From: Maribacter aquimaris
Lineage (GTDB): Bacteria > Bacteroidota > Bacteroidia > Flavobacteriales > Flavobacteriaceae
Direction of reading: 5' to 3'
Assembly: GCF_014596745.1 (NCBI RefSeq)
Contig: NZ_JABTCF010000001.1
Coordinates: 248,001 to 312,000, forward strand
DNA length: 64,000 nucleotides
Below are positions 5,756 through 63,613 of this stretch, in pieces. Both the position numbers and the translations under genes were made by a program. A model generated the notes under the pieces. The model saw only the letters and a list, made by a program, of their open reading frames with translations, ran no database searches and was not told the origin of the DNA. The first letter of the stretch is position 1. Every line of letters begins with the position of its first letter.

Positions 5756-8700
5756 TATATTGTTTTTTTAAGTTGCAACTCTTGTTTCCAACTAAATAAA
5801 ACCGGAACTACAAATAATGTAATCAATGCGATCAACATTCCGCCAAAACTTGGAATTGCCATAGGAATCATAATATCACTTCCACGCCCTGTTGAAGTTA
5901 ATACAGGCAATAATGCCAAAATCGTGGTTGCTGTTGTCATAAGACAAGGGCGAATACGTTTTTCTCCCGCCTCTACGATCGAATCCTTAATTTCTTTTAT
6001 GTTTTTAGGTGTATTTCTACCAAAAGTCTGTGTTAAATAAGTTGCCATTATAACGCCGTCATCAGTTGCAATACCAAATAGGGCAATAAACCCGACCCAA
6101 ACCGCAACACTTAAATTAATGGGATGTATTTGGAATAGGTTTCGCAGGTTATCCCCAAATAAATTGAAATTTAGAAACCAACCCTGACCATAGCACCAAA
6201 TCATTATAAAGCCACCGGCAAAGGCTACTGCTATCCCGGTAAACACCATAAGTGATGTGGCTATGGAACGGAATTGGAAATAGAGGATCAAAAATATGAT
6301 GGCTAAAGCCAAAGGTACGACCACGGATAATGTCTTTTCTGCCCGTAATTGACTCTCATAGGTACCCGTGAACTTGTAACTGATTCCCTTGGGTACTGTT
6401 AATTCCCCGGAATCTATTTTCTGTTGAATCAAGATTTGTGCATTCTCAACTACATTCACTTCTGCAAAACCTTTCAACTTATCGAATAGGACGTAACCTA
6501 CCAAAAAAGTGTCTTCACTTTTAATTACCTGTGGACCCTTTTCATACCTTATGGTTGCCAATTCACTTAATGGTACCGGACTGCCTTTCCCAACGGGAAT
6601 ATAGATTTGCTTTAAATCCGTTGGATTGGTCCTTAATTCCCTTGGATAACGTACCCGCACCCCATAGCGTTCCCTACCTTCGACAGTTTGTGTCAATACC
6701 ATTCCGCCAACAGCTACTTTCAATACATCTTGTACATCCTGTACCGTAATACCATAACGAGCCAATCTATCCCTATCAATGTCAATCAACACATACGGTT
6801 TACCTACAATACGGTCAGCAAATACAGCTTCTTGTTTTACACCTTCGACCTGTTTGAGGATATTTTCCAATTGAACACCAAAAGCTTCTATTTGATTTAA
6901 ATCTTGACCTTTTACCTTTATTCCCATGGGTGCGCGCATTCCTGTTTGAAGCATCACCAGTCTGGTTTCTATGGGCTGCAACTTGGGAGCAGAGGTAACG
7001 CCTGGTAATTTGGTGACACGTATGATTTCGTCCCAAATATCATCCGGCGATTTAATCTCCGGTCGCCAATTGCGGTAGAATTCCCCATCATTGTCAGGGA
7101 TCAGTTGTGTATTTCTAACATTGAGCATCATCGAATTAATTACCGTTTTGTTCTCGACAGAGCCTGTACTGAGCGTAGTCGAAGTGCTCGAACCGACAGC
7201 TATATTTTCGTTTTGGATCAATCGACCGTCTTTCATTACGAATAAACCATCATCGGTTTTATACCGTTGGCGTTCCCCATCTTCATTCAGCATATATTCA
7301 GGTTTATACTGAATAATATTCTCATACATCGAAAGAGGTGCGGGATCCAAAGCCGATTCTGTTCTTCCCGCTTTTCCTACAACGGTTTCAATCTCAGGAA
7401 TGGTGGCTACGGCCATATCCAATTGCTTTAAAACACGTTTATTTTCTTCAACACCGGCATGGGGCATAGAGGTCGGCATCAATAAAAATGAGCCTTCATT
7501 CAACGAGGGCATAAACTCTTTACCCATATTCCCCATTATGAGAAACCCGGCAATAACGATAACTATCGGTATGGATAGGAACAAGGCTTTATGATCTAAA
7601 CACCATCTTAAAATGCGTGTGTAATACCTTCGGAACAACGTAAATACGCCCAATAACCCAAAACAAACGATACTTACGAACATAAGATTCCAAAAGATAC
7701 TTTTTTCTATTCCCAACGGTCTCCAATATTCCGCCAATAAAATGATAATCGCGAATACCGAAATGATGATATTACACTGGTTTGCCCATTTTTCAGTTAC
7801 TTTTTCTTGAAGTTTCAATATTCCTACAACGCCAAAGGCAATTAAGGTAAATCCTAACCAATGGCCATATAAAACAACGGTTAGTCCCAATAGAATTAGA
7901 ATACCATATAGCATATAATTAATAGACTTTCTTAAAGGTTTCCTTCTAAATAAAAATGCCGCAAAAGGTGGAATTAAAAACAAGGCCACAATAATTGATG
8001 CTGTTAAGGCAAAGGTTTTTGTGAAGGCCAGAGGCCTAAACAATTTCCCTTCCGAACCAATCATCGTAAAAACAGGAATAAAGCTAATTATAGTTGTCAT
8101 TACCGCTGTAACTATAGCACTAGATACTTCTGCGGTTGCGTTGTAGACAATTTCATTAATTGAAAGTTTGTTCTTCGCAGCAGCATGAAGAACCCCTTTT
8201 ATGGGTTCTACTTCGTTGGTTCCTTGCCCTGATGGCTCCATGTGCTCATTTTCATCGAGATGTCGAACAATATTTTCGGAAAGAATAACCCCTACATCGA
8301 CCATTGTACCAATCGCAATCGCAATTCCGGAAAGGGCCACGATATTGGCATCAACGCCAAAGAACTTCATAGCTATAAACACCATTAAAACGGCAACCGG
8401 CAACAAGCCCGATATTAATATGGAGGCTCGAAGATTGAACACCATAATGATGATTACGAGGATGGTTATTAAAATCTCCAATGTTAAAGCTTCATTCAGT
8501 GTTCCCAACGTTTCCTGAATGAGTTCGGTTCTGTCATAAAAAGGAACAATCGTAACCTGTGAGGTCCTACCATCTGCAAGGACTTTAGAAGGTAATCCCG
8601 CACTTAACTCCTTTATTTTTTCTTTTACATTATTGATGACTTCCAAAGGATTAGCACCATATCGGGCAATCACAACAGCCCCAACAACCTCCGCACCTTC

Positions 8701-38663: not shown

Positions 38664-38740
38664 TTCTCTTTCTTCATTTCAAAAAGGAAACAGCTCCCAA
38701 TAAATGGGATCATGATGTAACATTGGGTCCTATTAATTGG

Positions 38741-38804
38741 CTTATCTATTTAGCACCTTGCTCTTTATTGCAGGTTGCTATCTCCTCTTATGGGATTCTT
38801 GATA
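38741..38804 (-). ncRNA. SAM-clan riboswitch-like aptamer (reduced form)
   Basis: On the minus strand, reading toward the NhaC gene: TATCAAGA, a short hairpin (ATCCC / GGAGAT), AGCAACC (38773-38779), hairpin TGC...GCA, AGGTGCTAA (38750-38758), then AGATAAG. These are the invariant SAM-I core elements in the correct order: P1 TATC/GATA with 4 bp, J1/2 AAGA, P3 closed by ACC/GGT. The long kink-turn P2 and the P4 hairpin of classical S-box RNAs are missing. A possible expression platform is the ACCCAAT / ATTGGG hairpin that follows. Distance to the ATG 77 nt. Confidence 0.6.
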
Positions 38805-39129
38805 CTAATTTAGGGCCGCAAAATTAGTGCAAATAACGATCTGCTGTTCTTAAAAAAAGTTAATTTCCGAGGTGGAATTCAACGGCTATTTTTTACAACT
38901 TTCAGTGCCACTATTCCTTGGGCATGGGAACTTTCCCGTTTTGAAGGAAGAATGTAATTACACTACCTTTGTTGCACGTATTTCGTTAAAGCTGCTGTCC
39001 CTAAAAAATGGGAATGCCCATTTTGGAAATAAAAGAAATTCAGTGTAAAGAAATATGAGGTAAATCTATAGAGGATTCCATTTTTATAAGCATTCTGCTA
39101 TAACGTTATACATCAGCACATTTCCAGCA
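38805..39129. other. intergenic, no gene seen
   Basis: Upstream half of the divergent region between the NhaC gene and the secreted 263-residue protein. Promoters are presumably here; no clear TAnnTTTG box, repeat or coding frame was recognised. Confidence 0.4.
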
Positions 39130-39959: not shown

Positions 39960-42538
<2,579 letters not shown>

Positions 42539-43612
42539 ATGCCATTATTGAATAAAAAGAAACGAATACAATATCTAGGGTTTGATGATTTCTGGTATTC
42601 GATCATGGGCATTCTTGTATTAAGTATTATCACAAACTATTTATTCAATAACCCATCCGAGAGAACATCCACAGCACTCGTTTTCATAGGTTGGGTCGCT
42701 TCCTTATTCTTTACCCTTTGCGATTGGGTCATTATACGAAGTATCTTAATTTCTTTGCGAAAAAAATACCCCGATTTCAAAGACGATAAAAAGCGGATTG
42801 GCATCCTTATTCTAGCTGTAATTTCCACGGTTTTTTTGGTGGATTTACTGGGGGGATATTTATCGGCGGGCGTCATCAAACTATTTGGGTATAGCTCACA
42901 ACATGTAATACATTTAAAAGTACTTATTCCGGTCATTATCATGACGATTATGGTGATGGCCATTTATGAGGTCATTTACTCGTATGTACGCTTAAAAAAA
43001 TCGATACGGGAAGAGGAACAAACCAAACAGGTAATGATACAGGCGCAGTTAGACACCTTAAGAAACCAGGCGCGTCCCCATTTCCTTTTCAACAGTCTAA
43101 ATACCCTGCGGGATATCATTGACCAAGACACCAAGGAGGATGCCAAGGATTTTGTGGATAATTTATCCGGTGTATATCGTTTTATTATCGAGTCGGGCAA
43201 CTCCAATTTAATTTCGCTAGGGGAGGAGTTGCAATTCGCGAAAGCCTATATTCATATCCAGTCGGAAAGATTTGGGGATAACTTGAAGTTGAACTGGAAT
43301 ATTCCTGACGCTAAACTTAGCACAATGATCGTCCCTATGAGTTTACAGCTTTTATTGGAAAATGCCATAAAACACAATATTGTTTCCAAAGCCAAACCAT
43401 TGACCATAACCGTAACCATTACGGATGACCACCTGGTAGTACGTAATAAAATCCAACCCAAATCGAGCCAAACACCCTCAACACAAATCGGTTTGCAGAA
43501 TATAAAAAAACGGTATCAACTTATAGCAAGTAAAACGCCTATCATCAAAAATGAGGGAGGGCATTTTACAGTTTCCCTTCCATTATTAAAACCATCCAAA
43601 GAAAAGTCATGA
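42539..43612 (+). CDS. LytS-type sensor histidine kinase
   Basis: 357 residues from ATG 42539; the TTG extension at 42482 is rejected. Four predicted membrane helices (about 10-150), then a His_kinase (LytS/YehU-type) domain with the phosphoacceptor in RPHFLFNSLNTL (about residue 180) and a C-terminal ATPase with LLLENAIKHNI and the GLQNIKKRY box. Overlaps the response regulator start by 4 bp (ATGA), so the two are translationally coupled. The signal is unknown; no periplasmic domain of size. Confidence 0.92.
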   Translation: MPLLNKKKRIQYLGFDDFWYSIMGILVLSIITNYLFNNPSERTSTALVFIGWVASLFFTLCDWVIIRSILISLRKKYPDFKDDKKRIGILILAVISTVFLVDLLGGYLSAGVIKLFGYSSQHVIHLKVLIPVIIMTIMVMAIYEVIYSYVRLKKSIREEEQTKQVMIQAQLDTLRNQARPHFLFNSLNTLRDIIDQDTKEDAKDFVDNLSGVYRFIIESGNSNLISLGEELQFAKAYIHIQSERFGDNLKLNWNIPDAKLSTMIVPMSLQLLLENAIKHNIVSKAKPLTITVTITDDHLVVRNKIQPKSSQTPSTQIGLQNIKKRYQLIASKTPIIKNEGGHFTVSLPLLKPSKEKS

Positions 43613-44364
43613 AAATATTGATCGTTGAAGATGAACCCCGTGCAGTAAGTCAATTAAAGCACTTATTGAACAACAGTGATTTTGATTTTGAAGTACTGGC
43701 TGTTATCGATTCCGTCGAGGATACGGTTTTATGGTTTAGAAATAATAGGACACCGGATTTGGTGTTCATGGATATTCAACTGGCGGACGGTTTAAGTTTT
43801 GAGATTTTCCGGAAAATAGAAGTAACCGCACCTATTATTTTCACTACGGCTTTTGACCAATACGCCATTCAGGCCTTTAAGGTAAACAGTATTGACTATC
43901 TCCTAAAGCCCATCAAACAAAACGACTTGGATGCTGCATTGATCAAATTCTCGAAATCCAAAAGGCTATCAACTCCCATAGAACCGAATATTTTAAAAGA
44001 ACTTTTAGGTAGTATCCAAACACCACAAAAACGTTCGGGAATCTTGGTAAAGGAGGGGAGTGGCTTTGTACAAATACGGGTATCGGAGCTTTTGTATATG
44101 TATTCGCAGGACAGTATCACGTTTGGTATTACCCATAACAAACGCTACATCATAGATGAGACCATGGACGAATTGTTTGGGTCCTTGGATGACACCAAGT
44201 TTTACAGAATCAATAGGGGCCAGATCATCTCCAAAATTTCAATCCAAAAAATAGAACCCTATTTTAACCATCGCGTAAAGTTATCCCTATCAAATCCCCG
44301 TGACCAGGAATTTATTGTAAGCAGACAAAAGACCAGCGATTTTAAAGACTGGTTGAACCAATAG
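43609..44364 (+). CDS. LytTR response regulator
   Basis: 251 residues: receiver domain with phosphoacceptor Asp55 (VFMDIQLADG), acidic pair ED at 7-8 and Lys in LLKPI, then a LytTR DNA-binding domain (about 145-250; VRVSELLYMYSQ ... FYRINRGQIIS). Partner of the preceding kinase. The S41-like gene begins 104 bp later and could be its target. Confidence 0.93.
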   Translation: MKILIVEDEPRAVSQLKHLLNNSDFDFEVLAVIDSVEDTVLWFRNNRTPDLVFMDIQLADGLSFEIFRKIEVTAPIIFTTAFDQYAIQAFKVNSIDYLLKPIKQNDLDAALIKFSKSKRLSTPIEPNILKELLGSIQTPQKRSGILVKEGSGFVQIRVSELLYMYSQDSITFGITHNKRYIIDETMDELFGSLDDTKFYRINRGQIISKISIQKIEPYFNHRVKLSLSNPRDQEFIVSRQKTSDFKDWLNQ

Positions 44365-46600: not shown

Positions 46601-47025
46601 ATGTTTTGATTTAGGAACTTTAAATCTATCCTATTGTTTCAGAATGACAAATTATATTGGACGAAAGGAGCATTAGTGTCTTTAAAAGTCCATATCCGAT
46701 GATTTTTCATCTTTTGAAATGTTCAATAAAACGCATAGTTTGAAAACACGTTAAGTGTCCGCAAAAGGAATAAAGGGCTACTTTACACGTGACACGTGCC
46801 AAAAGGAATTAGCCAGTGGCTGATTGCTTTTGGCGGCGGGTTGGGGCAGTGGCGTTTATTGCAGAATTTCCTTTTACATAATACCTGCCAATATGGTTTT
46901 AAAGAAACTTATTATACAAGCCAAGCCTGTCCCAAGTGGAATAGGAGGGGAGGGTAATGTGTATGCAATGGGTAAAATTAATTTTCAATACCAAGGACTA
47001 TCCCTTAAAGGGTATAAAATATGCA
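46601..47025. other. intergenic with structured repeats
   Basis: 425 bp between the receiver gene and the 3' end of the acyl-CoA dehydrogenase gene. It holds one structured stem-loop repeat (46787-46856) and one G-rich repeat (46942-46954). A small plus-strand frame here consists of repeat sequence and is not a gene. Confidence 0.5.
46787..46856 (+). repeat. structured repeat family B, copy 1 (partial)
   Basis: Stem GCCAAAAG...CTTTTGGC (46798-46834; 11 of 12 paired positions when extended) around the 13-nt loop TAGCCAGTGGCTG, followed by TGGCGGCGGGTTGGGGCAG. Starts CACGTGACACGTGCC, like the terminal repeat of the complete element at 61035-61230, but no matching right end is present, so this is a truncated copy. 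Confidence 0.7.
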
Positions 47026-48988: not shown

Positions 48989-49588
48989 TTGTTAGAGAAA
49001 AGACAACAATTACCCCAAGAACAATTTATAGATGCAACTAATTTCATTTATTGTTTAGAAGCGGTTCATGAAACAGAAACGGACAAGGTTACCGAAGCAC
49101 AAGAAAGCTTGGAACAATTGGCCTTGAAATATGGAATAGCAAGCATCTATAAAACCTGTGACACCATTGAAGGACTGGAAGATAGCTTAAACACACTGGT
49201 CTTGGATGATCATCATTTTAAGGATTATGAAATCATCTACATGGTTATGACCGGTGAGGCCAATAGTATTTGTTTGAATGACTACTACTATAGTTTACAG
49301 GAAATTGCTGAAATTTTTGAAGGAAGGTTACAAGGAAAGATCTTACATTTTTCAAATGCGAAAATCTTGGATTTGGACGAAGAGGAAGCACAATATTTTT
49401 TGGATATCACCGGGGCAAAAGGTGTTTCTGGCTATGGTAATGCACATAATGGAATAAGTAGCTCAAATCTTGACAAGGCCTTCTTCAACTTATTCAAGGA
49501 AGATGATACTATGTTGGATGTGGTAGAAGAGCTGCACCAAAGACACTACAATGTCTGTAAATTACTTGATTTTAGATTGTATTACTAA
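48989..49588 (+). CDS. DUF6642-like protein
   Basis: 199 residues. Begins near FIYCLEAVHE and continues with YEIIYMVMTGEANSICL and a helical C-terminal half, a pattern I associate with DUF6642, which may have a caspase/CHAT-like fold; the assignment is tentative. No ATG is available: the frame opens after a stop at 48950-48952 and the only plausible initiator is TTG at 48989, unusual in this phylum. The start may have been altered or lost. Structured repeat family A begins at the base after its stop codon and probably serves as terminator. Confidence 0.6.
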   Translation: MLEKRQQLPQEQFIDATNFIYCLEAVHETETDKVTEAQESLEQLALKYGIASIYKTCDTIEGLEDSLNTLVLDDHHFKDYEIIYMVMTGEANSICLNDYYYSLQEIAEIFEGRLQGKILHFSNAKILDLDEEEAQYFLDITGAKGVSGYGNAHNGISSSNLDKAFFNLFKEDDTMLDVVEELHQRHYNVCKLLDFRLYY

Positions 49589-52726: not shown

Positions 52727-53147
52727 AACATCATTTTTCAAGGCTTCGGGAAGAGGTTTGTCGCAGGGGTTCTAAGAATTGGAAATTTTGTAGAAAGTCT
52801 TTCCTATGTATAAAATTTGAGGCTAGGTGAACCTATAAGGATTGCCAGCCGCGTTCACAAAATAGTGCTACAGTATCTTTAAAAAATTTATTCTAAAATA
52901 CCTCTTCTACAAGGGTAATGAAACCGGAGGTTAACGAGGACCTATTTATCAAAATAGAAATGACCCGAGTAAACACTTTTTATGCGACGACGTAGGAGGG
53001 AAGCGTAATGTGTGTGGAATGGCAATTATACTAAATCACTAATTTCTTTTTAAAATACTAATTATTGTTAAAATTAAAACAAGTTTCAGTATCTTATTAT
53101 AGTCTTTTATTATTATTCTCAAAAAATATTCTATTTATTTTTTTATT
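52727..53147. other. intergenic before the TetR operon
   Basis: About 420 bp. A G-rich repeat (GTAGGAGGGAAGCGTAATG, 52992-53010) continues with TGTGTGGAATGG, similar to copies near 42217 and 46942. Base composition becomes strongly AT-rich from about 53030, marking the left edge of the accessory operon. Confidence 0.5.
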
Positions 53148-53185: not shown

Positions 53186-53749
53186 ATGCCTAGAGTAAAA
53201 CAATATAATGAAGCAGAAGTAATAGAAAGTGCTATGGGCGTATTCTGGCAGAATGGCTATAAAAGTACTTCTTTACGAATGTTATCCAAAGAAATGGGTA
53301 TCAATCAATTTTCTATAAATGCTAGTTTTGGTAATAAACAAAATCTGTTTTTAGAAAGTTTAAAATTGTACAGAACTAAGCTACAGCAATTATTAAAAAC
53401 CTTTGAAGAGAATTCTAATGGTATTGAGAGTATTAAGAACTTCTTTTATGCATTTGCAGAATTTTCAAACCAAAATGAGTACAAAAGAGGCTGTTTAATG
53501 ATCAATACAATGTCTGAATTTGGTCTTGAGGTAGATAAAGAAGTTGGTGCTCTTATTTCAAATTACGCAGAACAGTTAAAGGCTTTATTTAAGAAGAATC
53601 TTGAATTCAATACTACAAAAGATAACGACACTATAAAAAGACAAGTAAATTACCTTGATTTGGCTATTGGTGGTTTAGGCTTAGCAACAAAAGTAAAAGA
53701 CAATACAGCCATAGAAGATTATATAGAAATGACATTTAATAACTTATAA
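53186..53749 (+). CDS. TetR/AcrR-family repressor
   Basis: 187 residues. N-terminal HTH with VFWQNGYKSTSLRMLSKEMGINQFSINASFGNK pattern split over residues about 18-50, the conserved F-x-N-K-x-x-L-F recognition segment, and an all-helical ligand domain. Preceded and followed by identical palindromes, which indicates autoregulation and control of the downstream dehalogenase operon. The inducer is unknown; halogenated or reactive small molecules are a guess from the genes controlled. Confidence 0.92.
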   Translation: MPRVKQYNEAEVIESAMGVFWQNGYKSTSLRMLSKEMGINQFSINASFGNKQNLFLESLKLYRTKLQQLLKTFEENSNGIESIKNFFYAFAEFSNQNEYKRGCLMINTMSEFGLEVDKEVGALISNYAEQLKALFKKNLEFNTTKDNDTIKRQVNYLDLAIGGLGLATKVKDNTAIEDYIEMTFNNL

Positions 53750-53768
53750 CATTTTTTTTACCTTAAAA

Positions 53769-53784
53769 CTAATCAATTGATTAG
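53769..53784. promoter_or_regulatory. TetR operator 2
   Basis: CTAATCAATTGATTAG, identical to the core of operator 1, located 18 bp before the first structural gene. Confidence 0.85.
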
Positions 53785-53801
53785 AAATAAATATAGAACA
53801 C

Positions 53802-54794
53802 ATGAAAACAAAGAACAACTTAGGAAAAACAGTACTACTCACGTTAACAATTGTATTATTAATGGGAAACAATATGCAAGCACAAGAAAAGGAAGTATAT
53901 AATAAGGATATTACCAACAAGAAAGAAAGACCATTTATAGTGGATAAGGGCGAGTATCCTTTTAAAAGTAATTGGTTTGAAAAAGATGGCGTTTCTATGC
54001 ATTATATAGATGAAGGTGAAGGGATACCTATTGTATTAACTCACGGTAACCCAGATTGGTCTTTTTTAAATAGAAATATTATTAAAGGACTTTCAGGTGA
54101 AGCTAGAGTAATAGCTTATGATTTACCAGGATTTGGTTTTTCAGACACGCCAGAAAACTATGGTTTTACACCACAAGAGCATGTAGAATGGATTAGCGCA
54201 CTTCTTTTTGAGCATTTAAAGTTAGAGAAGTTTATTATTGTTGTTCAAGATTGGGGTGGACCTACAGGGCTATCCGTAGCTACAAGCAACCCAGATAAAG
54301 TTTTAGGAGTAGTTATCAGTAATACTTGGGCTTGGAAAGCAGAAGGAAAATTAGAAGGTTTCTCTATGTATATGAGAACACCAGAAATGGAAGCAAAGGT
54401 TATCGATAACAATTATTTTGCAACCACATTAATGCAAAGCTCTATTAATAAAAAATCGAGTAGTACTAAAGCAATTACAGATGCTTATGAAATGCCGTTC
54501 CCAACCAAAGAATCTAGAAAAGGAACAGCAATATTCCCGCAGCAAATTACATTAGCAGCAGATTGGTTAGTAGATTTAGAAGGCAAGCTGAATACGCTAC
54601 AAGATAAACCTGTTGAATTTATTTTTGGTTTAAAAGATGATACAGTTGCTTCACAAGACATTCAAGATAAATGGCGTTCTATTTTCCCTAAAGCACCAGT
54701 ACAATTGTTACCAGAAGCTGGTCACTTTACACAAGAAGACAGTCCTGAGAGTTTTGTGTTTTCATTGAGAAGAATTCTAAAAAATATAGAATAG
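53802..54794 (+). CDS. secreted haloalkane-dehalogenase-like alpha/beta hydrolase
   Basis: 330 residues with a Sec signal peptide (about 1-28, MQA-QE). Alpha/beta-hydrolase core: HGNPDW (Asn83, halide-stabilising position), nucleophile Asp150 in VVQDWGG, acid in GLKDDTV and His in EAGHFTQED. The acid lies after strand 7, as in the HLD-I/III subfamilies, unlike the second copy at 58370. A periplasmic dehalogenase-type enzyme would be unusual; fluoroacetate dehalogenase-like or epoxide-hydrolase-like activity cannot be excluded. First gene after operator 2. Confidence 0.83.
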   Translation: MKTKNNLGKTVLLTLTIVLLMGNNMQAQEKEVYNKDITNKKERPFIVDKGEYPFKSNWFEKDGVSMHYIDEGEGIPIVLTHGNPDWSFLNRNIIKGLSGEARVIAYDLPGFGFSDTPENYGFTPQEHVEWISALLFEHLKLEKFIIVVQDWGGPTGLSVATSNPDKVLGVVISNTWAWKAEGKLEGFSMYMRTPEMEAKVIDNNYFATTLMQSSINKKSSSTKAITDAYEMPFPTKESRKGTAIFPQQITLAADWLVDLEGKLNTLQDKPVEFIFGLKDDTVASQDIQDKWRSIFPKAPVQLLPEAGHFTQEDSPESFVFSLRRILKNIE

Positions 54795-54799
54795 ATTAA

Positions 54800-55132
54800 A
54801 TGGCTGATTCAACCGATTATGTAGACTTTATTTTGGACCAATTATCAAATTGGAAAACGATCATCACAAAAAGAATGTTCGGTTGTGTCGGTCTTTATGC
54901 AGATGGTTTAATGTTTGGTATAATCGCCAAAGAAACTATTTATTTTAAAGTAGACGACTCCAATAAAAACAAGTATTTAGAAGCTGGTTCAGAGACTTTA
55001 AAACTTTTTAAAAGTAACAGTGTGGTCGCTTCTTTTTATGAGGTTCCTGTTGAAATTATTGAAGACGCAAATCAATTTGTGGTTTGGGCTGAAGCCTCTT
55101 TAGAGATTCAAAAAAGAAAAAACGAAGTATGA
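54800..55132 (+). CDS. TfoX N-terminal domain protein
   Basis: 110 residues, only the TfoX/Sxy N-terminal domain (DFILDQLSNWKTIITKRMFGCVGLYADGLMFG). Full TfoX has a second C-terminal domain and controls competence in gammaproteobacteria; single-domain forms are of unknown role. Five bp after the hydrolase gene and overlapping the next gene by 4 bp. A truncated paralog is present at 59718-59876. Confidence 0.85.
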   Translation: MADSTDYVDFILDQLSNWKTIITKRMFGCVGLYADGLMFGIIAKETIYFKVDDSNKNKYLEAGSETLKLFKSNSVVASFYEVPVEIIEDANQFVVWAEASLEIQKRKNEV

Positions 55133-55791
55133 AAGTAATTATAACAGGAACCACGGGTATGGTAGGACGAGGCGTTTTAATAGAATGTTTAGAATCTCCA
55201 AATGTTGAAGAAGTATTGGTCATAAACCGAAGCTCTTTGCAAATGCAGCATCCAAAATTAAAAGAAGTAATTCATAAAGATTTTTTCAATTTTAGTTCCA
55301 TTAAGGAAGAATTAAAAGGGTATGATGCTTGTTTTCATTGCATGGGAGTTTCTTCTATTGGAAAGAAAGAGGAAGAATATCATCGTTTTACCTACGGAAT
55401 AACGGAAGAATTAGCTAAAACGCTTTATACTATAAATCCAGAAATGGTATTCAATTATGTTTCTGGAGAAGGCACAGACAGTACCGAAAAAGGAAAATTG
55501 ATGTGGGCTCGTGTAAAAGGAAAAACCGAGAATATGATTTTGAATATGGGCTTTAAAGATGCTTATATGTTTCGACTTCAAGTAATTCTTCCTTTGAAAG
55601 GGGTGAAATCCAAGACCGCATGGGTAAATGCATTCTATTTTATCGCTCGTCCGTTTTTTGGACTTTTAGAAAAAAAGAAAAATAACACCACAAGTGTCAA
55701 CGTTGGTCTCGCTATGATTAATAGTGTTCTTTTTGGAACCGACAACAAACTTTTAGAAAATGAACAGGTAAATAAACTAGCAAAAAATTAA
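55129..55791 (+). CDS. NAD(P)-binding epimerase-like (atypical SDR)
   Basis: 220 residues; Rossmann start IITGTTGMVGRGVLIECLE (GxxGxxG), then CFHCMGVSS at the strand-4 position and a W-x-x-K segment (LMWARVKGKTENM) in place of the usual YxxxK. This variation is typical of atypical SDRs that act as NAD(P)H-binding or redox sensor proteins. Translation-coupled to the TfoX gene (ATGA). Confidence 0.85.
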   Translation: MKVIITGTTGMVGRGVLIECLESPNVEEVLVINRSSLQMQHPKLKEVIHKDFFNFSSIKEELKGYDACFHCMGVSSIGKKEEEYHRFTYGITEELAKTLYTINPEMVFNYVSGEGTDSTEKGKLMWARVKGKTENMILNMGFKDAYMFRLQVILPLKGVKSKTAWVNAFYFIARPFFGLLEKKKNNTTSVNVGLAMINSVLFGTDNKLLENEQVNKLAKN

Positions 55792-55801
55792 ACCAATCAA
55801 A

Positions 55802-56191
55802 ATGAATAAAATATTTAAAACAATAGTTCTAATAGCAGGTGTCTTAAACTTCCCAATAGGTATTATGATGATTGTACAAGCAATCTCTAGTAAAACGGGC
55901 GAAGCCTTAATAACCAATTCGGTAGCAGGTGCTTTTATAATCTTCGCGGGAGCATCACTAATTTGGGCGATACAAGAAGTAAACACCAGAGCACCCATAA
56001 TCCTTTGGAATGGTTTTGTGCGCTTATTTAACGTATTTCTAGTATCCTATGCCACAACGGTTGGGGATGTGCCACAAGAAATGATATACACTACGGGAAT
56101 GGATTTAGTATTAGCAATTGTCTTCATAATTGGAAGTGTAAAAGTTACGGGAATACCATTTTCAAAATTAGTAATAGGAAAAACAAATTAA
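55802..56191 (+). CDS. small four-helix membrane protein
   Basis: 129 residues with four predicted membrane helices (about 6-28, 38-58, 68-88, 95-115) and short polar loops. No family recognised with confidence; resembles small DUF-type inner-membrane proteins that often accompany SDR genes in flavobacterial clusters. 10 bp after the preceding gene. Confidence 0.7.
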   Translation: MNKIFKTIVLIAGVLNFPIGIMMIVQAISSKTGEALITNSVAGAFIIFAGASLIWAIQEVNTRAPIILWNGFVRLFNVFLVSYATTVGDVPQEMIYTTGMDLVLAIVFIIGSVKVTGIPFSKLVIGKTN

Positions 56192-56213
56192 TAAAAACTT
56201 AAAATCAAATACA

Positions 56214-56954
56214 ATGAAAAATAATATAGAAGGTAAAGTAGTAGTAATTACAGGAGGAAGTAGTGGATTAGGAGAAGCTACAGCACGTTTTTTAGCAGAA
56301 AAAGGAGCAAAAATAGTTTTAGGTGCTCGTAGACTAAATAAATTAGAAGTAATTGCTGATGAAATAAGAAAAAGCGGAGGAGCAATTGAAGTTTTAAAAA
56401 CAGACGTTACCAAAGCTAATGATGTAAAAGCATTAGTAAAAAAGGCAATTGACAGTTTTGGTAAAATAGATGTAATGATAAATAATGCAGGCATTATGCC
56501 ATTAGCACCATTAGCTGCACTTAAAGTAGACGAATGGGACAGCATGATTGACGTAAATATCAAAGGAGTATTATACGGAATTGCAGCTGCATTACCAGAA
56601 TTTCAGAAACAAAAATCAGGTCATTTTATAAATCTTGCTTCCGTAGCCGGATTAAATGTGAGCCCAGGTGGAGCCGTATATAGTGGGACTAAATTTGCCG
56701 TAAGAGCTATTAGTGAAGGCTTACGAAAAGAAGTAGGTAAGGACATTAGAACCACCATACTTACACCAGGTCTTATAGATTCTGAATTACAACTAGGAAG
56801 CTCAGACGAGGCTACTTCTCAGTTTGTACAACAAGTATATAAAGATGCTATTCCTGCTATTTCTATTGCTAAAGCAGTGGCTTATGCTATTGAGCAACCT
56901 GATGATGTAGATATTAATGAATTAGTAATTCGTCCTACGGTACAGGAATTTTAA
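56214..56954 (+). CDS. SDR-family oxidoreductase
   Basis: 246 residues, classical short-chain dehydrogenase: cofactor loop GGSSGLGEA (about 14-22), NNAG, catalytic Ser in NLASVAG and YSGTK (Tyr/Lys). Substrate unknown; the C-terminal segment (IRPTVQEF) matches NADP-preferring oxidoreductases of the YdfG-like group. The same C-terminal segment is found again as a relic at 57602. Confidence 0.92.
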   Translation: MKNNIEGKVVVITGGSSGLGEATARFLAEKGAKIVLGARRLNKLEVIADEIRKSGGAIEVLKTDVTKANDVKALVKKAIDSFGKIDVMINNAGIMPLAPLAALKVDEWDSMIDVNIKGVLYGIAAALPEFQKQKSGHFINLASVAGLNVSPGGAVYSGTKFAVRAISEGLRKEVGKDIRTTILTPGLIDSELQLGSSDEATSQFVQQVYKDAIPAISIAKAVAYAIEQPDDVDINELVIRPTVQEF

Positions 56955-56970
56955 TAATATAAAATCTAGT

Positions 56971-57606
56971 ATGAAAAAAACCTTAGTTATAGGAGCAAGT
57001 GGGCAAATAGGCAAAATGCTTGTTGAAAAATTGCTCCAAGAAGAAAATTCTGTAGTTGCCTTGGTTCGTAATGAACAGAAGGGGCAAGAACTTGAAAAAC
57101 TAGGAGCAGAAATTGTAGTTGGAGACCTTGAAAATGATTTTGAACACGCTTTTAAAGATTGTGACAAAGTTGTATTTAGTGCAGGTTCTGGCGGTAATAC
57201 AGGTTACGATAAAACACTTTTAATAGATTTATGGGCAGCAAAAAAAGCTGTTGATTATTCTTTAAAAAATAATATACAGCATTTTATTATGGTAAGTGGT
57301 CTGGGTGCTGGTGATCCTAACGAGTTTGTATCTGACTTAAAACCATATTTAGTAGCGAAGTATTTTGCCGATTATTATTTATTAGAAAGTGGTTTAGCGT
57401 ATACGATTTTACGTCCTGGTAGTTTAATCAATGAAAAAGGAACGGGTTTAGTTAGAACTTCAAGATCTGAAATTTTTAAAGAGTTAGTCATTCCAAGAGA
57501 AGATGTAGCTCATGTAATTGCGTATTGTCTAGAAAATAACGACACAAAAGGCAAAACATATGAGCTATATAGCGGAAAAGAGTCTATTCGTGAATCTTTA
57601 AATTAA
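56971..57606 (+). CDS. NAD(P)H-binding atypical SDR
   Basis: 211 residues; GASGQIGKMLVEKLL cofactor motif, SAGSGGNTGYDKT, then MVSGLGAGDP and LRPGSL. Matches NmrA-like/SDR_a5 NAD(P)H-binding proteins, including biliverdin-reductase-like folds. Directly downstream of the classical SDR and likely cotranscribed. Confidence 0.88.
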   Translation: MKKTLVIGASGQIGKMLVEKLLQEENSVVALVRNEQKGQELEKLGAEIVVGDLENDFEHAFKDCDKVVFSAGSGGNTGYDKTLLIDLWAAKKAVDYSLKNNIQHFIMVSGLGAGDPNEFVSDLKPYLVAKYFADYYLLESGLAYTILRPGSLINEKGTGLVRTSRSEIFKELVIPREDVAHVIAYCLENNDTKGKTYELYSGKESIRESLN

Positions 57607-57643
57607 TGAACCAATAATTCGTCCAACAGTACAAGATTTTTAG
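57602..57643 (+). pseudogene. relic of a second SDR C-terminus
   Basis: Reads INEPIIRPTVQDF and stop, against INELVIRPTVQEF and stop at the end of the SDR at 56214-56954. It begins within the stop region of the atypical SDR gene and has no start. The DNA differs from the intact copy, so it derives from a divergent paralog whose body was deleted. Confidence 0.75.
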
Positions 57644-57650
57644 AATAGAA

Positions 57651-58364
57651 ATGAAAAACTATCTTCAAGAAATAGAAATAATCACTTCTAAAGCAGGTGA
57701 TACAGTTCCTTTACAAAGGAAAGCTTTTAATGCGGGCTTTAGTTTTAGCCTTTTAACTTTTGGTGAACAACTAGAGATATGGGATTTTATCTGGAAAAAC
57801 ACTCAAGATTACAGAACAGAAATGTTTTGTTTGTATTTCTTGGAGGAGCATATTAAAAATAAAGAAGATATACTTACCTCTTGGTCAACGATTAAATTAT
57901 GGCAAGACAAAATTAATCGTTGGGAAACAAGTGATAGTATTTCAAAAATATACGCTCAATTGGTTGAATATGATGCAGAACTAATTATGCCAACGTATAA
58001 AAAATGGAATACATCTAAAAACCCATGGCATAGAAGACAAAGCATAGTAGGTTTACTTTATTATAGCGCACATAGAAAACACTATTTACCTTTTCAAGTA
58101 CTTATAGATTTGGTAGCACCTTTAATTTCTGACAAAGCTTATTATGTGGAGAAAGGAGTAGGTTGGACACTTAGAGAAATAGGAAATATTTACCCAAAAG
58201 AGCAGGAAGAATTTCTTTTTGAAAATGCTACTAAAATTTGCGCTTATGGATATAGTGCAGGTACGGAAAAATGGGATAAAACAAAACGAGAAAAACTGAA
58301 GGAAATTAGAAAAGTGGGAAGAGTTTTAAACCGCAAAAGTTCAATTTCAAAATTTAATAAATAA
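57651..58364 (+). CDS. AlkD-like DNA alkylation repair protein
   Basis: 237 residues, all-helical with HEAT-like repeats. Family signatures: KNPWHRRQSIVGLLYY and VEKGVGWTLREIGNIYP, the latter supplying the Trp and acidic residues that line the AlkD active groove. AlkD glycosylases remove alkylated bases without base flipping. Presence next to dehalogenases suggests a response to alkylating or halogenated compounds; inference from context. Confidence 0.85.
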   Translation: MKNYLQEIEIITSKAGDTVPLQRKAFNAGFSFSLLTFGEQLEIWDFIWKNTQDYRTEMFCLYFLEEHIKNKEDILTSWSTIKLWQDKINRWETSDSISKIYAQLVEYDAELIMPTYKKWNTSKNPWHRRQSIVGLLYYSAHRKHYLPFQVLIDLVAPLISDKAYYVEKGVGWTLREIGNIYPKEQEEFLFENATKICAYGYSAGTEKWDKTKREKLKEIRKVGRVLNRKSSISKFNK

Positions 58365-58369
58365 AAAAT

Positions 58370-59269
58370 ATGACCAACAAAAAACAAATATCAGCAGCGT
58401 TTCCTTTTGAATCTAAATTTCAAGAAGTATTAGATTCTAAAATGCATTATGTAGATGAAGGAGATAAAAATTCAAAAGATACTTTTGTACTGCTACACGG
58501 TAATCCTACATCTAGTTATTTATGGCGTAATATTATTCCGTATGTAAGTCCGTTAGGTCGTGTAGTAGTTCCAGATCTTATTGGAATGGGCAAATCTGAC
58601 AAACCAGATATAGACTATACATTAAAAGATCATATTGCTTATTTAGATGCTTTTATTGAAAAGTTAGAGCTAAAAAATATCATTCTAGTAATACAAGATT
58701 GGGGTTCTGGTTTAGGTTTCAATTATGCCAATCAGCATAGAGGAAATGTAAAAGGAATAGTGTTTTTTGAAGCTATGGTTCAAGTTTCTTATTGGAAAAA
58801 TACGACTAAAGAGACCGAAACACTATTCAAGAAATTTCGTGACCCTGTAGAAGGACATGAAATGATCGTTAAAAACAACTTCTTTATTGAAGCTATGCTA
58901 CCTATGATGGCAGGCAGAGAATTAACTAAAGAGGAAATGGACCATTACCGAGCTCCTTATTTGGAAGAAAAGAGTCGTAAACCACTGTTTATGTGGCCAG
59001 GTCAAATTTCGTTTGATGGTGTTCCAAAATTCACTACAGACATTGTTAATTCATATAATGAATACCACAAAAATTCAGACGTTCCTAAGTTGCTCTTTTT
59101 TGCAGAACCAGGACTCATAATTAATCGAAAATTAGGAGAACATATAGCTGAAACTTGGAAAAATGTTACTGCAGTAGATTTAGGTGAAGGAAAGCATTAT
59201 CTACAAGAATCACATCCACACGAAATTGGAGAAGGTATTGTAGATTGGTATAAAAAAAATATTAAATAA
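58370..59269 (+). CDS. dhaA: haloalkane dehalogenase (HLD-II type)
   Basis: 299 residues, no signal peptide. All catalytic and halide-binding positions of the DhaA/LinB subfamily are visible: Asn45 in HGNPTSS, nucleophile Asp110 and halide-binding Trp111 in VIQDWGSG, acid Glu134 in VFFEAM (after strand 6, diagnostic of HLD-II), and His276 in EGKHYLQE. The C-terminal FFAEPGLI resembles LinB closely. Such enzymes hydrolyse haloalkanes to alcohol and halide. Length is normal. Second dehalogenase-type gene of the operon. Confidence 0.92.
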   Translation: MTNKKQISAAFPFESKFQEVLDSKMHYVDEGDKNSKDTFVLLHGNPTSSYLWRNIIPYVSPLGRVVVPDLIGMGKSDKPDIDYTLKDHIAYLDAFIEKLELKNIILVIQDWGSGLGFNYANQHRGNVKGIVFFEAMVQVSYWKNTTKETETLFKKFRDPVEGHEMIVKNNFFIEAMLPMMAGRELTKEEMDHYRAPYLEEKSRKPLFMWPGQISFDGVPKFTTDIVNSYNEYHKNSDVPKLLFFAEPGLIINRKLGEHIAETWKNVTAVDLGEGKHYLQESHPHEIGEGIVDWYKKNIK

Positions 59270-59277
59270 ATAAAAAG

Positions 59278-59715
59278 ATGAAAATGAAAAATAATTTTAG
59301 TTTAAAACAGTTTATTGTAATCACACTAATAACTAGTATTTGGATACATATTGCAGAAATAGGAAGAGCTATGTTAGTGGCCTTCCCATTGATAGAAAAA
59401 TTTATTGCGGGCAGAATACCAGTTGGTGCAATGGAAGTAAGTAATGCTTTGATTTGGGGAATTTGGGATACTTTATTGACTGCAGTTTTAGTATTTATAT
59501 TTTGGCTTTGTTCCGTAGCTTTTGGGAATAACTTAAAGTCAATTATTATTTCTGGTACAACTACAGCTTTAGCAACCATAGGTATTTTCTGGATAGCCAC
59601 TGTAAATACAGGCTTGGGAGCGTGGAGTGCGGCAGCTGTTATATTTCCTATCGCATGGGCTGAAATGATTATCGGCGCTTGGATAGCATCAAAATTGTAT
59701 TCAAGAAACAAATAG
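59278..59715 (+). CDS. four-helix membrane protein
   Basis: 145 residues with four membrane helices: FIVITLITSIWIHIAEIGRA, LIWGIWDTLLTAVLVFIFWL, a third around TTALATIGIFWIATV and a final AWAEMIIGAWIASKLY. Not recognised by family. Its second half is duplicated in the relic at 59835-60066, which shares FWIATVNTGLG and IASKLY. Last intact gene of the operon. Confidence 0.75.
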   Translation: MKMKNNFSLKQFIVITLITSIWIHIAEIGRAMLVAFPLIEKFIAGRIPVGAMEVSNALIWGIWDTLLTAVLVFIFWLCSVAFGNNLKSIIISGTTTALATIGIFWIATVNTGLGAWSAAAVIFPIAWAEMIIGAWIASKLYSRNK

Positions 59716-59717
59716 AA

Positions 59718-60066
59718 ATGGCTGTTTCAAGTTATTTTACACAGTTTGTTCTCGACCAACTATCGGTTTGGGGTAAAGTGTCTATCAATAAAATGTTTGG
59801 CTGTGTTGCATTGTATAAGGATAATTTTGCTTTTCATTTTTTGGCTTTGTGCAAAAGCTTTTGGCAACACTACTAAGGCTATTTTTATAAGTGCAACTGT
59901 AACAGCTTGGGCAACTATTGGCATATTTTGGATAGCAACTGTTAATACAGGTTTAGGAGAATGGTCTACAGGCTTTTTGGCGATACTATTTGCTTGGATT
60001 GGTCTCTTAATTGGTGCATTTATAGCCTCTAAGCTATATAAGACAGAACGTTGGGTTAGTAAGTAA
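59718..60066 (+). pseudogene. chimeric relic: TfoX-N fused to membrane-protein tail
   Basis: Frame 1, 59718-59876: a TfoX N-terminal start (VLDQLSVWGKVSINKMFGCV), homologous to the intact TfoX gene at 54800. Frame shifts at about 59830, where sequence homologous to the end of the neighbouring membrane protein begins (FIFWLCAKAFGN ... FWIATVNTGLG ... IASKLYK). A deletion joined two genes that once lay in tandem. Neither part can be functional as written. Confidence 0.8.
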
Positions 60067-60137
60067 AGTTTTATTTTGCTTATTTATTCTGAATTTTATC
60101 TAAAAAGGAGAATTCTAATAATGACCTTGGCCTCATA

Positions 60138-60155
60138 ACCCCGAAGCTTCGGGGT
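60138..60155. repeat. perfect GC-rich palindrome
   Basis: ACCCCGAAGCTTCGGGGT, 18 bp without loop. A similar CCCGA / TCGGG hairpin lies at 49753-49766, also next to structured repeats. Not followed by a T-run. Confidence 0.6.
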
Positions 60156-60195
60156 GGTAAAACAATAAGGTGAAGTGAGCGTAAATATTTTAGGC

Positions 60196-60236
60196 TATCC
60201 AAATACAATGATCCAGTGGATGATTGTATTTGGATA
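60196..60236. repeat. structured repeat family B, copy 5
   Basis: Arms TATCCAAATACAAT (60196-60209) and ATTGTATTTGGATA (60223-60236) are a perfect 14-bp inverted repeat around the constant loop GATCCAGTGGATG. Confidence 0.8.
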
Positions 60237-60276
60237 CAACACTTTACTAAATGTTAGTTTCAAATCGTATTTAACT

Positions 60277-60309
60277 AAAAATGTATTTTGGGTACATTTT
60301 CTTAACGCC
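60277..60309 (-). repeat. structured repeat family A, partial copy
   Basis: Hairpin AAAAATGTATTTTGGGTACA and following CTTAACGCC closely match the hairpin of the full copy at 60364-60387 (AAAAATGTACTTTGGGTACA), but the AGCTGGCTCC flank is missing. Confidence 0.6.
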
Positions 60310-60336
60310 AAATAGTCTAGAATATAGCGACTGAGC

Positions 60337-60402
60337 GCCACCGCGCCAGCTGGCTCCTTCGCTAAAAATGTACTTTGGGTACATTTTCTTTACGCTCGGC
60401 CC
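60337..60402 (-). repeat. structured repeat family A, copy 2
   Basis: Minus strand reads GGGCCGAGCGT, hairpin GAAAATGTAC / GTACATTTTT, AGCGAAGGAGCCAGCTGGCG. The flanks equal copy 1 (49589) while the hairpin arms are unrelated in sequence. Outside, CGGCCCTGTTTCTTTTTTTA is shared with copy 3. Confidence 0.7.
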
Positions 60403-60425
60403 TGTTTCTTTTTTTATCAAGAGGG

Positions 60426-60464
60426 CATAAAATGAAATTATCCAGTGGATGATTTTATTTTATG
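60426..60464. repeat. structured repeat family B, copy 4
   Basis: Arms CATAAAATGAAAT and ATTTTATTTTATG pair at 12 of 13 positions around TATCCAGTGGATG. Arms differ from all other copies; the loop does not. Confidence 0.8.
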
Positions 60465-60834
60465 AGCCAGGCGTTGCAGCGGACTTAACCATTAAGAAAA
60501 TAAGGCCAACGCATCAGCTGGCCCAAAATTTCAGAGATACTTAATCTCTAAAATTTATATCCTATTTTACATAATATTAGAAACACCTAAAGTAAAACTT
60601 CAAACAGAGGATAGTGGTAGCAAGTGCTAAGAATTTTGCTCGGTTTGCCAGCGCTTCATCTCGCTCATATTTTAAAAGGTCTACCAGACCTTCCAAAATA
60701 CTGCCGTGCGGCAAGCTGACGAGAATGCTGTAGAAAAAAATCTTGCACACATTTCCTCGAATACGAGAATTTCAAATGAATCTAAAAGTTTTGCTTTTTT
60801 TGGTCCTTCGACTGCGCTCAGGATAAACTATGGC

Positions 60835-60912
60835 AAGCGATGGAAATCCGGTGGATGATTTTATTTGGCGGCGAGATGGCGCAGCTGGGAAACGCTGCGC
60901 AGCAAATCGCTT
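60835..60912 (+). repeat. structured repeat family B, copy 3 (78-bp element)
   Basis: Terminal inverted repeat AAGCGAT / ATCGCTT (7 bp, perfect). Inside: a short arm around ATCCGGTGGATG, the shared TTGGCGGCGAGATGG, and a perfect GCGCAGC / GCTGCGC hairpin (60879-60900). A smaller version of the layout of 61035-61230. Confidence 0.7.
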
Positions 60913-61034
60913 ATTAGTTTCATGACCCAAGTTCCAATTATTCTTATGAAAACGAATTGCTTCTAGGATATTTTATATAATGCAATTATAGCTGTCTAAT
61001 ATGAACCAACATTTCAGTAAAACGGCTTTTACAT

Positions 61035-61230
61035 ACGTGACAAAAGGAATTAGCCCGTGGCTGATTGTTTTTGGCGGCGGGTTGATGCGGCTGCGACGAT
61101 ATAGAACACTGGCGTGTTGCTATATCTACAATTATATCAAATACGTGGTATACGCCGTTTTATGCATTCCCAGCCGCACAGGTCTCGCCGCCAATCTAAA
61201 AAGTCTACTAGACTTTCTAGATTGTCACGT
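61035..61230 (+). repeat. 196-bp multi-branched inverted-repeat element (family B, copy 2)
   Basis: Perfect 8-bp ends ACGTGACA (61035-61042) and TGTCACGT (61223-61230). Nested inside: arm 1 with loop TAGCCCGTGGCTG; GGCGGCG (61073-61079) with CGCCGCC (61186-61192); GCGGCTG (61087-61093) with CAGCCGC (61171-61177); GATATAG-AACAC with GTGTT-G-CTATATC (61098-61126); arm 3 AATCTA / TAGATT enclosing AGTCTA / TAGACT (61193-61223). The whole can fold as a multi-way junction of DNA or RNA. No coding content. Confidence 0.75.
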
Positions 61231-61337
61231 GTACTATAATTTATATTATGTAAAATAGGATATTTAAAGAGGTGTACAACCACCCTTTATCGAATATCCC
61301 TGCATCTTATCCCAAATGTCCCTTTTCAAACTCCCCG

Positions 61338-61401: not shown

Positions 61402-61872
61402 ATGAAATACACAAGTTCCCCCTTTGTGCTCATTTGGGCATTGATGTTCCTTTTCCTGGGTTGTAACAATGATGATGTCAAGGAAGCCGTCATCCTACAA
61501 AGTGTTGCATATCCCATATATGATATCTCAAATTCAGGCATCTCCGGTACGGCTACCTTTACCCAAGAGGACAATGGTTCCACACACGTATTGATCGAAC
61601 TCGAAGGCGCCTATACCTCCGAAAACCCGGCTTACATCCGGTTTAACAGTGCCGCTGAAGGCGGTACGGTGGCCTTTACCCTTAAAAACTGTGAATGTGC
61701 CATTAGCAATTCCACCATTACCCATTTGGATAACGGAAACGCCATTAGCTATGAAGGTTTGATTAGCTTGGACGGACATATTACCATTCATGGTGGTGTT
61801 GGCTATAACGCCCCTATCGTGGCCGTAGCAGACATTGGTTCCAATGCAAAACCAAGTTCAACGTCCCTATAA
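61402..61872 (+). CDS. CHRD-like lipoprotein, copy 1
   Basis: 156 residues; lipobox Cys at 21 (LGCNND). The mature part follows CHRD-domain logic (SGTATFTQEDNGSTHVLIEL ... NPAYIRFNSAAEGG ... ITIHGG), though the usual HPAHIH is NPAYIRF. Paralog of the gene at 62179 with long identical segments. Copy 1 has a small insertion near the C-terminus (GGVGYNAP) and a longer tail. Function unknown; surface or periplasmic location expected. Confidence 0.82.
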   Translation: MKYTSSPFVLIWALMFLFLGCNNDDVKEAVILQSVAYPIYDISNSGISGTATFTQEDNGSTHVLIELEGAYTSENPAYIRFNSAAEGGTVAFTLKNCECAISNSTITHLDNGNAISYEGLISLDGHITIHGGVGYNAPIVAVADIGSNAKPSSTSL

Positions 61873-62178
61873 CAGATTTTGAAAATAGTCTAGGCTTTTA
61901 TTTCAGCCTATTAAAAGGATACAAATTCCGCTTAACGATCCGTATTATTCCTATCGTAAATTTATTCCAAAGGAATATCTGGTTTTGCCATTTTCGAGGC
62001 TTCCTTTGGAAAAATATCCTTGAATATTCGCAAAATCGGTTCGATAAAAAGCGTTTTATCCTACTAAAAACTGCTCTACGTCGGAATTTTCACCCTTTTG
62101 GTAGAAAAGCCATTTCCAAATACAATATCATATCAACCAATTTCTAATTTTGGAGGGAATAAACAACACTTAAGAAAT
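61873..62178. other. spacer between paralogous lipoprotein genes
   Basis: 306 bp, AT-rich, no gene, hairpin or repeat recognised. It is long enough to hold a separate promoter for the second gene. Confidence 0.4.
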
Positions 62179-62622
62179 ATGAAAATTAAAAGTTCCCTCT
62201 CTGTATTAGCTTTGCTATGTGTAATGGTTTTTACTGGTTGTAAAAAAGATGACGTTGAAAAAGCCGTTATCCTCAATAGCGTAGAATACCAAATTTATGA
62301 TGTATCCGATTCTGGTGTTTCCGGTACGGCTACCTTTACCCAGGAAGACAATGGTTCAACCCACGTATTGATCGAATTGGATGGAGCCAATACCTCTACC
62401 AATCCTGCTTATATACGATATAACAGTGCCGCTGAAAGTGGTGATGTCGCCATTACCCTTTCCGTTTGCGAATGTGCTATCAGTAATACCACGATTACAA
62501 CATTGAACAATGGCAATACCATTACGTACGAAGGACTGGTTGCCTTGAACGGACATATCACCATACATGATGCCAACGGTAACATTGTAGCCGTTGCTGA
62601 TATAGGAGCTAATTCAAACTAA
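62179..62622 (+). CDS. CHRD-like lipoprotein, copy 2
   Basis: 147 residues from ATG 62179; a TTG extension at 62098 is rejected because the lipoprotein signal starts at this ATG (lipobox Cys 21, TGCKKD). Shares GTATFTQEDNGSTHVLIEL, NPAYIR and ECAISN with copy 1, so the pair arose by tandem duplication. Followed by a strong terminator. Confidence 0.83.
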   Translation: MKIKSSLSVLALLCVMVFTGCKKDDVEKAVILNSVEYQIYDVSDSGVSGTATFTQEDNGSTHVLIELDGANTSTNPAYIRYNSAAESGDVAITLSVCECAISNTTITTLNNGNTITYEGLVALNGHITIHDANGNIVAVADIGANSN

Positions 62623-63050: not shown

Positions 63051-63318
63051 AGGATTTGATTTATGGGGTTAAACAAAAACTATTCTATTCCATTAAATTA
63101 CGAAATTATACCCACCCTTATCGATTCCAAATTCCTTATTATCAATATTTAACGGTAATTTAGTATTCCCTTAAAATAACTTTAGCATAAGGCATGAAAA
63201 AACCGGATCAAGAACAGTTTCTGGGTATTTATATTCATGCAAATAATCGAGTTAACCTAAATAGGAAGAATCCTGTATTTCTAACGCCTCTGAACGGGGT
63301 GCTAAAGAAGAAAGGACC

Positions 63319-63363
63319 CATTTTCAATTTCGTTTTAAATCAAGTGGTTTCCGCATTGGGCGG
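63319..63363 (+). repeat. direct repeat family D, copy 1
   Basis: CATTTTCAATTTCGTTTTAA ... TTTCCGCATTGGGCGG. Matches 63569-63613 except for about three bases. Confidence 0.8.
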
Positions 63364-63487: not shown

Positions 63488-63568
63488 GGCTGACTTTAAA
63501 AAGAATGTCAGTCTTGTAAATCAATATTTCCATTGGTTTCAGTAAGTTAATCGTAAACTTTCCCGGCC

Positions 63569-63613
63569 TATTTTCAATTTCGTTTTAAATCCAGTGATTT
63601 CCGCATTGGGCGG
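63569..63613 (+). repeat. direct repeat family D, copy 2
   Basis: Second copy of 63319-63363, 250 bp downstream, same orientation; AAATCCAGTGATTT here replaces AAATCAAGTGGTTT and is close to the family B loop. Confidence 0.8.

Follow-up and report, generated by a model that had tools for sequence, protein, structure and literature searches.

We found that the constant-tip hairpins of the analysed window lie in the non-coding stretches of an operon-cassette array next to dif, the site where the cell separates joined chromosomes. The window is a stretch of 64,000 nucleotides from Maribacter aquimaris (RefSeq assembly GCF_014596745.1, contig NZ_JABTCF010000001.1, positions 248,001 to 312,000 of the forward strand). 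Related bacteria of the family Flavobacteriaceae carry similar arrays, which look like a way of collecting whole operons, some of them anti-phage systems, with the cell's own recombinases. We consider that the hairpins are most likely structural parts of Xer-dependent operon cassettes, with a probability of about 0.55, although the role of the hairpins themselves is inferred and the array in the window looks partly decayed. The relevant features of the window are as follows.

61230 to 61256, plus strand: chromosomal dif site, consisting of TGTACTATAA, TTTATA and TTATGTAAAAT in this order; the only exact match in the genome in a search with up to 3 mismatches, and the only hit of a dif matrix in the window; the operon-cassette array lies upstream of it.
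60196 to 60236, plus strand: hairpin with a CC-AGT-GG tip, of the subfamily of the LEFT stem; 12 of 12 inner pairs, DNA fold z -7.7.
60426 to 60464, plus strand: hairpin with a CC-AGT-GG tip; 11 of 12 inner pairs, z -5.1.
61041 to 61073, plus strand: hairpin with a CC-CGT-GG tip in the non-coding segment next to dif; 9 of 12 inner pairs, z -2.6, with 3 of 200 shuffles folding as well.
46799 to 46833, plus strand: hairpin with a CC-AGT-GG tip at the older end of the array; 11 of 12 inner pairs, z -5.4.
60845 to 60857, plus strand: tip sequence without complementary arms; 4 of 12 pairs.
60129 to 60170, plus strand: LEFT end of the non-coding element, just after the operon, in which AAAATTTT is replaced by another palindrome, as read from an alignment of 17 elements.
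60968 to 60992, minus strand: degenerate inverted dif-like site, read by comparison with relatives and below the threshold of the matrix scan.
60557 to 60577, minus strand: inverted XerD-arm-like repeat, a perfect inverse of 61243 to 61263.
53186 to 60066, plus strand: operon carried by the last cassette (TetR, hydrolases, TfoX-like, dehydrogenases, DNA alkylation repair).
52964 to 53022, plus strand: SITE3, the right end of the non-coding element before the operon; profile E 5.8e-15, model R1 E 1.1e-11.
46894 to 46971, plus strand: a second, weaker SITE3; profile E 1.6e-8.

The initial annotation described a constant 13-nt loop between arms that vary freely but stay complementary, and this observation was confirmed. 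The sequence KAKCCMGTGGMTG, searched with up to 1 mismatch, occurs 4 times in the window, all exact, at 46810, 60210, 60439 and 61051, whereas 0.64 occurrences were expected and at most 3 were seen in 100 shuffles. With three arm bases on each side, the 4.86-Mb genome has 4 perfect places, all in this window, and 6 other places with 2 mismatches, indicating that this is not a genome-wide repeat. Among 299 genomes of the family, 68 have a match with at most one mismatch, some of them in coding frames, and the reversed pattern matched in 13. The arm complementarity of all occurrences of the loop had been proposed as a test, and we ran it on 62 non-redundant tips in loci of relatives. Of the 50 tips outside open frames of 150 codons, 46 have at least 7 of 12 pairs, and 423 of 550 arm cells (77%) are Watson-Crick, against a mean of 0.532 (sd 0.019, maximum 0.585 of 200) when the 3' arms were dealt out anew. 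On the other hand, of the 12 tips in long frames, 9 have 5 or fewer pairs, and 50 of 132 cells are paired. When only 13-17 arms that differ from each other at 4 or more of 12 positions were taken, 0.72-0.80 pair against about 0.45, and 0 of 500 shuffles reached this value in each of 20 picks. The tip at 60845 is a case against the claim.

Two points of the initial description needed correction. The loop is itself paired (ATCC-NGT-GGAT or GCC-NGT-GGC), so it is the conserved tip of a longer hairpin with a triloop, CC-NGT-GG; the third position is T-A in 38 and G-C in 12 of 50, and the outer bases are T.G in 36 of 50. Also, the arms are not entirely free but fall into several subfamilies. G.T pairs outnumber A.C 45 to 9 in the arms, but in coding tips the ratio is 24 to 12, so that composition explains part of the excess. 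In 8 hairpins that lie antisense to the cassette the ratio is 5 to 0. This hints that the hairpin's own strand folds as a single strand.

The interpretation given in the initial annotation was partly supported. On the one hand, the fold rather than the arm sequence is kept, with changes on both sides of pairs beyond the partner-shuffled controls. On the other hand, the link to a Y1/RAYT transposase was not supported. The genome gives one Y1_Tnp match, below the cut-off of the family (21.4 of 23 bits), and this is a RAYT-like ORF (locus from position 201475 of contig C3 of the genome) whose neighbouring palindromes are of another kind, the AGACCTACAAGGTTTT type. Palindromes in non-coding DNA with several subfamilies would fit miniature REP-like elements mobilised by a RAYT, but with these palindromes and only four perfect copies in 4.86 Mb we regard this origin as very unlikely. 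The arms rebuilt by template switching and the tip-recognising protein that had been proposed are conjectures on present evidence. The initial annotation missed the dif site about 170 nt after the last copy, the dif-like sites beside the hairpins of relatives, and the cassette array.

Relatives share a non-coding element between operons, with a LEFT end (beginning CCTCATAAAATTTTGG), in many a long imperfect stem with the hairpin, and a right end, SITE3 (ending AATGTGTGTGGAATGG). LEFT follows the last gene on the same strand in 36 of 40 cases, often within 40 nt. After SITE3, the next gene is on the same strand in 47 of 64 judged cases, 36 of them starting 49-213 nt away; in 17 it is opposite, and in 15 of these its stop codon lies within 29 nt. 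In total, 37 units from SITE3 to the next LEFT or dif hold 124 same-strand and 18 opposite genes, and 28 of 37 have no opposite gene; the units are about 1-10 kb long, with a median of 4.7 kb. The cargo is varied, and among 126 ORFs, PADLOC models for a CBASS-type cyclase, type II methyltransferases, a Mads protein and PDC-S60 match two ORFs each. A DUF6642 gene of 199 aa and unknown function (window 48989 to 49588) recurs beside such arrays, with 7 members in 5 genome groups. For the histidine kinase and LytTR regulator pair at window 42482 to 44364, relatives of the regulator occur in 10 and of the kinase in 8 of 36 genome groups of array loci, several right beside SITE3.

These positions allow that the hairpins act as RNA, that is, as terminators, processing signals or a long structured 3' UTR of the operons, carried along in the cassettes without a part in recombination. 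The position of LEFT after the last gene, the excess of G.T over A.C pairs and the good fold of the whole element of one relative's locus, L060 (z -5.65, 20 shuffles), are in line with this possibility. However, eight hairpins lie antisense to the cassette and keep 5 G.T and 0 A.C, and 12 of 50 begin at a fixed distance from an inverted dif-like site. A search for known RNA families gave no Rfam match to the hairpins; it returned only an unrelated SAM-I-IV riboswitch on the minus strand of the window (38713 to 38810) and two sub-threshold matches in three relatives' loci. RNAalifold gave 12 pairs on SITE3, 3 with changes on both sides, and 12 on the long stem, 4 with such changes, which is weak support only. 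We consider the RNA explanation doubtful.

At the outer end of arrays recurs the sequence of TGTACTATAA, TTTATA and TTATGTAAAAT, which resembles the dif of E. coli. With up to 3 mismatches it was found in 26 of 26 family genomes tested, in one place in 22 and in two places in 4, and the reversed pattern matched in 3. We first considered that TATATTATGTAAAATA marks transposon ends, but array ends showed it to be the XerD arm of dif. The genome has an XerD (329.9 bits, cut-off 329.6) and a second Xer-type protein that fits XerC best but lies below its cut-off (293.9 of 335.15). A sister species is 87% identical downstream, and the alignment starts at the first base of dif; upstream its cassette differs, while parts of the non-coding segments are alike in several species. 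MscS and DUF3817 genes recur in 11 of 36 genome groups of the sampled loci and next to dif in 3 of 11 dif loci fetched later, so in several genera this is the same chromosomal place. Right after dif, two similar small proteins without a Pfam match (window 61402 to 61872 and 62098 to 62622) are kept in most of the genus genomes that could be read, and beyond dif lies a 47-nt direct repeat, 94% identical, of unknown kind (63317 to 63363 and 63567 to 63613).

In the 13 genomes where we found SITE3 (E below 1e-7) within 20 kb of dif, it is on the XerC-arm side and the same strand. However, of the 11 dif loci fetched for the purpose, 5 show SITE3 and 6 do not, and some arrays lie far from dif, as in the family genomes G061 (at 2.18 Mb) and G125 (at 0.74 Mb). 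The genome searches with the SITE3 model score only part of their candidates and missed sites that a profile found in fetched loci (genomes G258 and G061). Second arrays in G125 (contig C1 near 1090991) and G300 (contig C11 near 1159387) end in a dif-like site with three mismatches, so arrays may also form at secondary sites. We expected dnaA opposite dif, but it lies within 4-24% of the genome length from dif in all 14 single-contig genomes of the family. A GC third-position signal was sampled in one genome, where 16 of 20 samples fit a terminus near dif and 4 do not (2.16, 2.37, 3.56 and 4.02 Mb), with the origin placed by eye from the same data. It is also conceivable that the hairpins are double-stranded palindromes or cruciforms that bind a protein of the replication terminus, since they cluster beside dif in several genomes. 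However, the arms vary, the G.T excess is strand-specific and arrays also lie away from dif, and we regard this explanation as very unlikely.

Array starts in relatives carry TACTATAATGTTCYGYGTTATGTAAC, which comprises the XerC arm, a 9-nt centre and a shortened XerD arm. A scan of named genomes gave at least 119 loci, from Flavobacteriaceae genera or Flavobacteriales, apart from a Saprospiraceae, a Bacteroidia and a Bacteroidetes MAG. In the first 80 loci, 78 of 80 testable sites have SITE3 downstream, 60 of the 78 at 157-165 nt, and in the other 39 loci, not looked at before, 39 of 40; 4 of 124 sites were too near a locus end. In total, 117 of 120 testable cassette-start sites have this conserved end downstream. 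In 48 relatives' loci a dif matrix finds 79 sites (4 in a Markov control), 31 with a 6-nt and 33 with a 9-nt centre. Neighbouring sites within 400 nt are inverted with XerC arms inwards 15 times, the other way once and direct never. In the window itself the matrix scan finds only dif and no cassette-type site, so this array, with one good and one weaker SITE3, may no longer move.

A dif-like site lies within 400 nt of 25 of 50 non-coding tips, of 0 of 12 coding tips and of 24-33 of 500 random places. In 12 of the 50 cases an inverted dif-like site ends 15-16 nt before the tip, just where the hairpin arm begins, although the arms differ. At positions 6688 to 6834 of a relative's locus, L045, the only inverted pair that was folded, the DNA pairs its two inverted dif-like sites with the hairpin as a branch (z -6.6, no shuffle of 200 as good). 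This forked hairpin resembles the folded attachment site of CTX-type phages, two inverted sites 90 nt apart (PMC5357621). However, half of the tips have no dif-like site within 400 nt, and the idea that segments between inverted dif-like sites carry these hairpins was not borne out, since only 1 of the 15 strict inverted pairs holds an NGT hairpin.

What the sequences show directly is the dif site at 61230, the cassettes of relatives that start with a dif-like site, carry operons mostly on one strand and line up on the XerC-arm side of dif, and the 12 of 50 hairpins that begin at an inverted dif-like site. We infer from this that host XerC/XerD recombine a circular cassette into dif; the movement itself, the strand form used and what the hairpin does are likewise inference. 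The cassette site has a good XerC arm, a 9-nt centre and a poor XerD arm, so exchange on the XerC side would leave a cassette-type site on the left and an intact dif on the right, which is what is seen. In this view, the hairpin together with inverted dif-like sites is most likely a foldable attachment site used when the cassette is single-stranded, as in CTX-type elements, and selection then keeps fold and tip and lets the arms drift. However, no circle, carrier or reaction was seen, and searches of viral contigs (with the exact pattern), plasmids and phages gave no match.

In comparison with known systems, the dif or pdif modules of Acinetobacter (PMC6449649, PMC12907356, PMC13141974) also have genes between Xer sites that alternate in direction, arrays of modules, varied cargo and host XerC/XerD. 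Here, by contrast, whole operons lie at the chromosomal dif of Flavobacteriaceae, with cassette sites that have a 9-nt centre, a conserved 160-nt end and tip-conserved hairpins, and movement is only inferred. One three-gene cassette is shared by two species at different array positions, but at 87% identity and only over the coding part. The IMEX, which include CTX-, VGJ- and TLC-type phages, the gonococcal island and LME-1 (PMC5357621, PMC9765430), share a dif-like site with a good XerC arm and an intact dif on one side; the two inverted dif-like sites of the CTX type, which fold in single-stranded DNA, have a clear counterpart in the one place of L045; no integrase of their own is known for the cassettes. 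No recombinase gene was seen among the ORFs scanned, which covers the 25 commonest of 135 Pfam families of 126 ORFs and 9 ORFs of one array scanned singly. The cassettes differ in that no phage or transfer genes were seen in the ORFs sampled, and in that many small cassettes lie in tandem. In the relatives, the site criteria of both dif modules and IMEX are fulfilled. Microvirus-related proviruses of Bacteroidales (PMC3091885) show Xer-type integration at dif-like sites in the same phylum, some with a second dif-like site near one end, but carry viral genes instead of host operons and belong to another order.

Integrons also form cassette arrays in one direction with structured sites and with defence genes among the cargo. 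The tandem cassettes on one strand could suggest integron attC sites; however, the boundaries here are dif-like, the cargo is operon-sized and no integron integrase was seen among the two of the genome's nine tyrosine recombinases that were typed. These two are both Xer-type and score far below the integron-integrase cut-off (134.8 and 107.1 of 265 bits). We consider an attC identity highly unlikely. We found no account of such cassettes in Flavobacteriaceae in open-licence PubMed Central papers, to which the search was confined.

A further reading, which we consider unlikely but which is not excluded, is that Flavobacteriaceae have an integrase-free gene-capture system. In this case, operons, including anti-phage defence, would travel as small single-stranded circles whose non-coding backbone folds into a forked hairpin attachment site with a conserved CC-NGT-GG tip, and host XerC would insert them at dif and so build integron-like arrays at the replication terminus. 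The tip may also serve packaging or replication by a helper.

In summary, if our main interpretation is right, a large family of mostly marine bacteria has a widespread counterpart of integrons that runs on the cell's own chromosome-separating enzymes and stocks whole operons, some of them defence systems, near the replication terminus. It would also explain hairpins with a constant tip and compensated arms.
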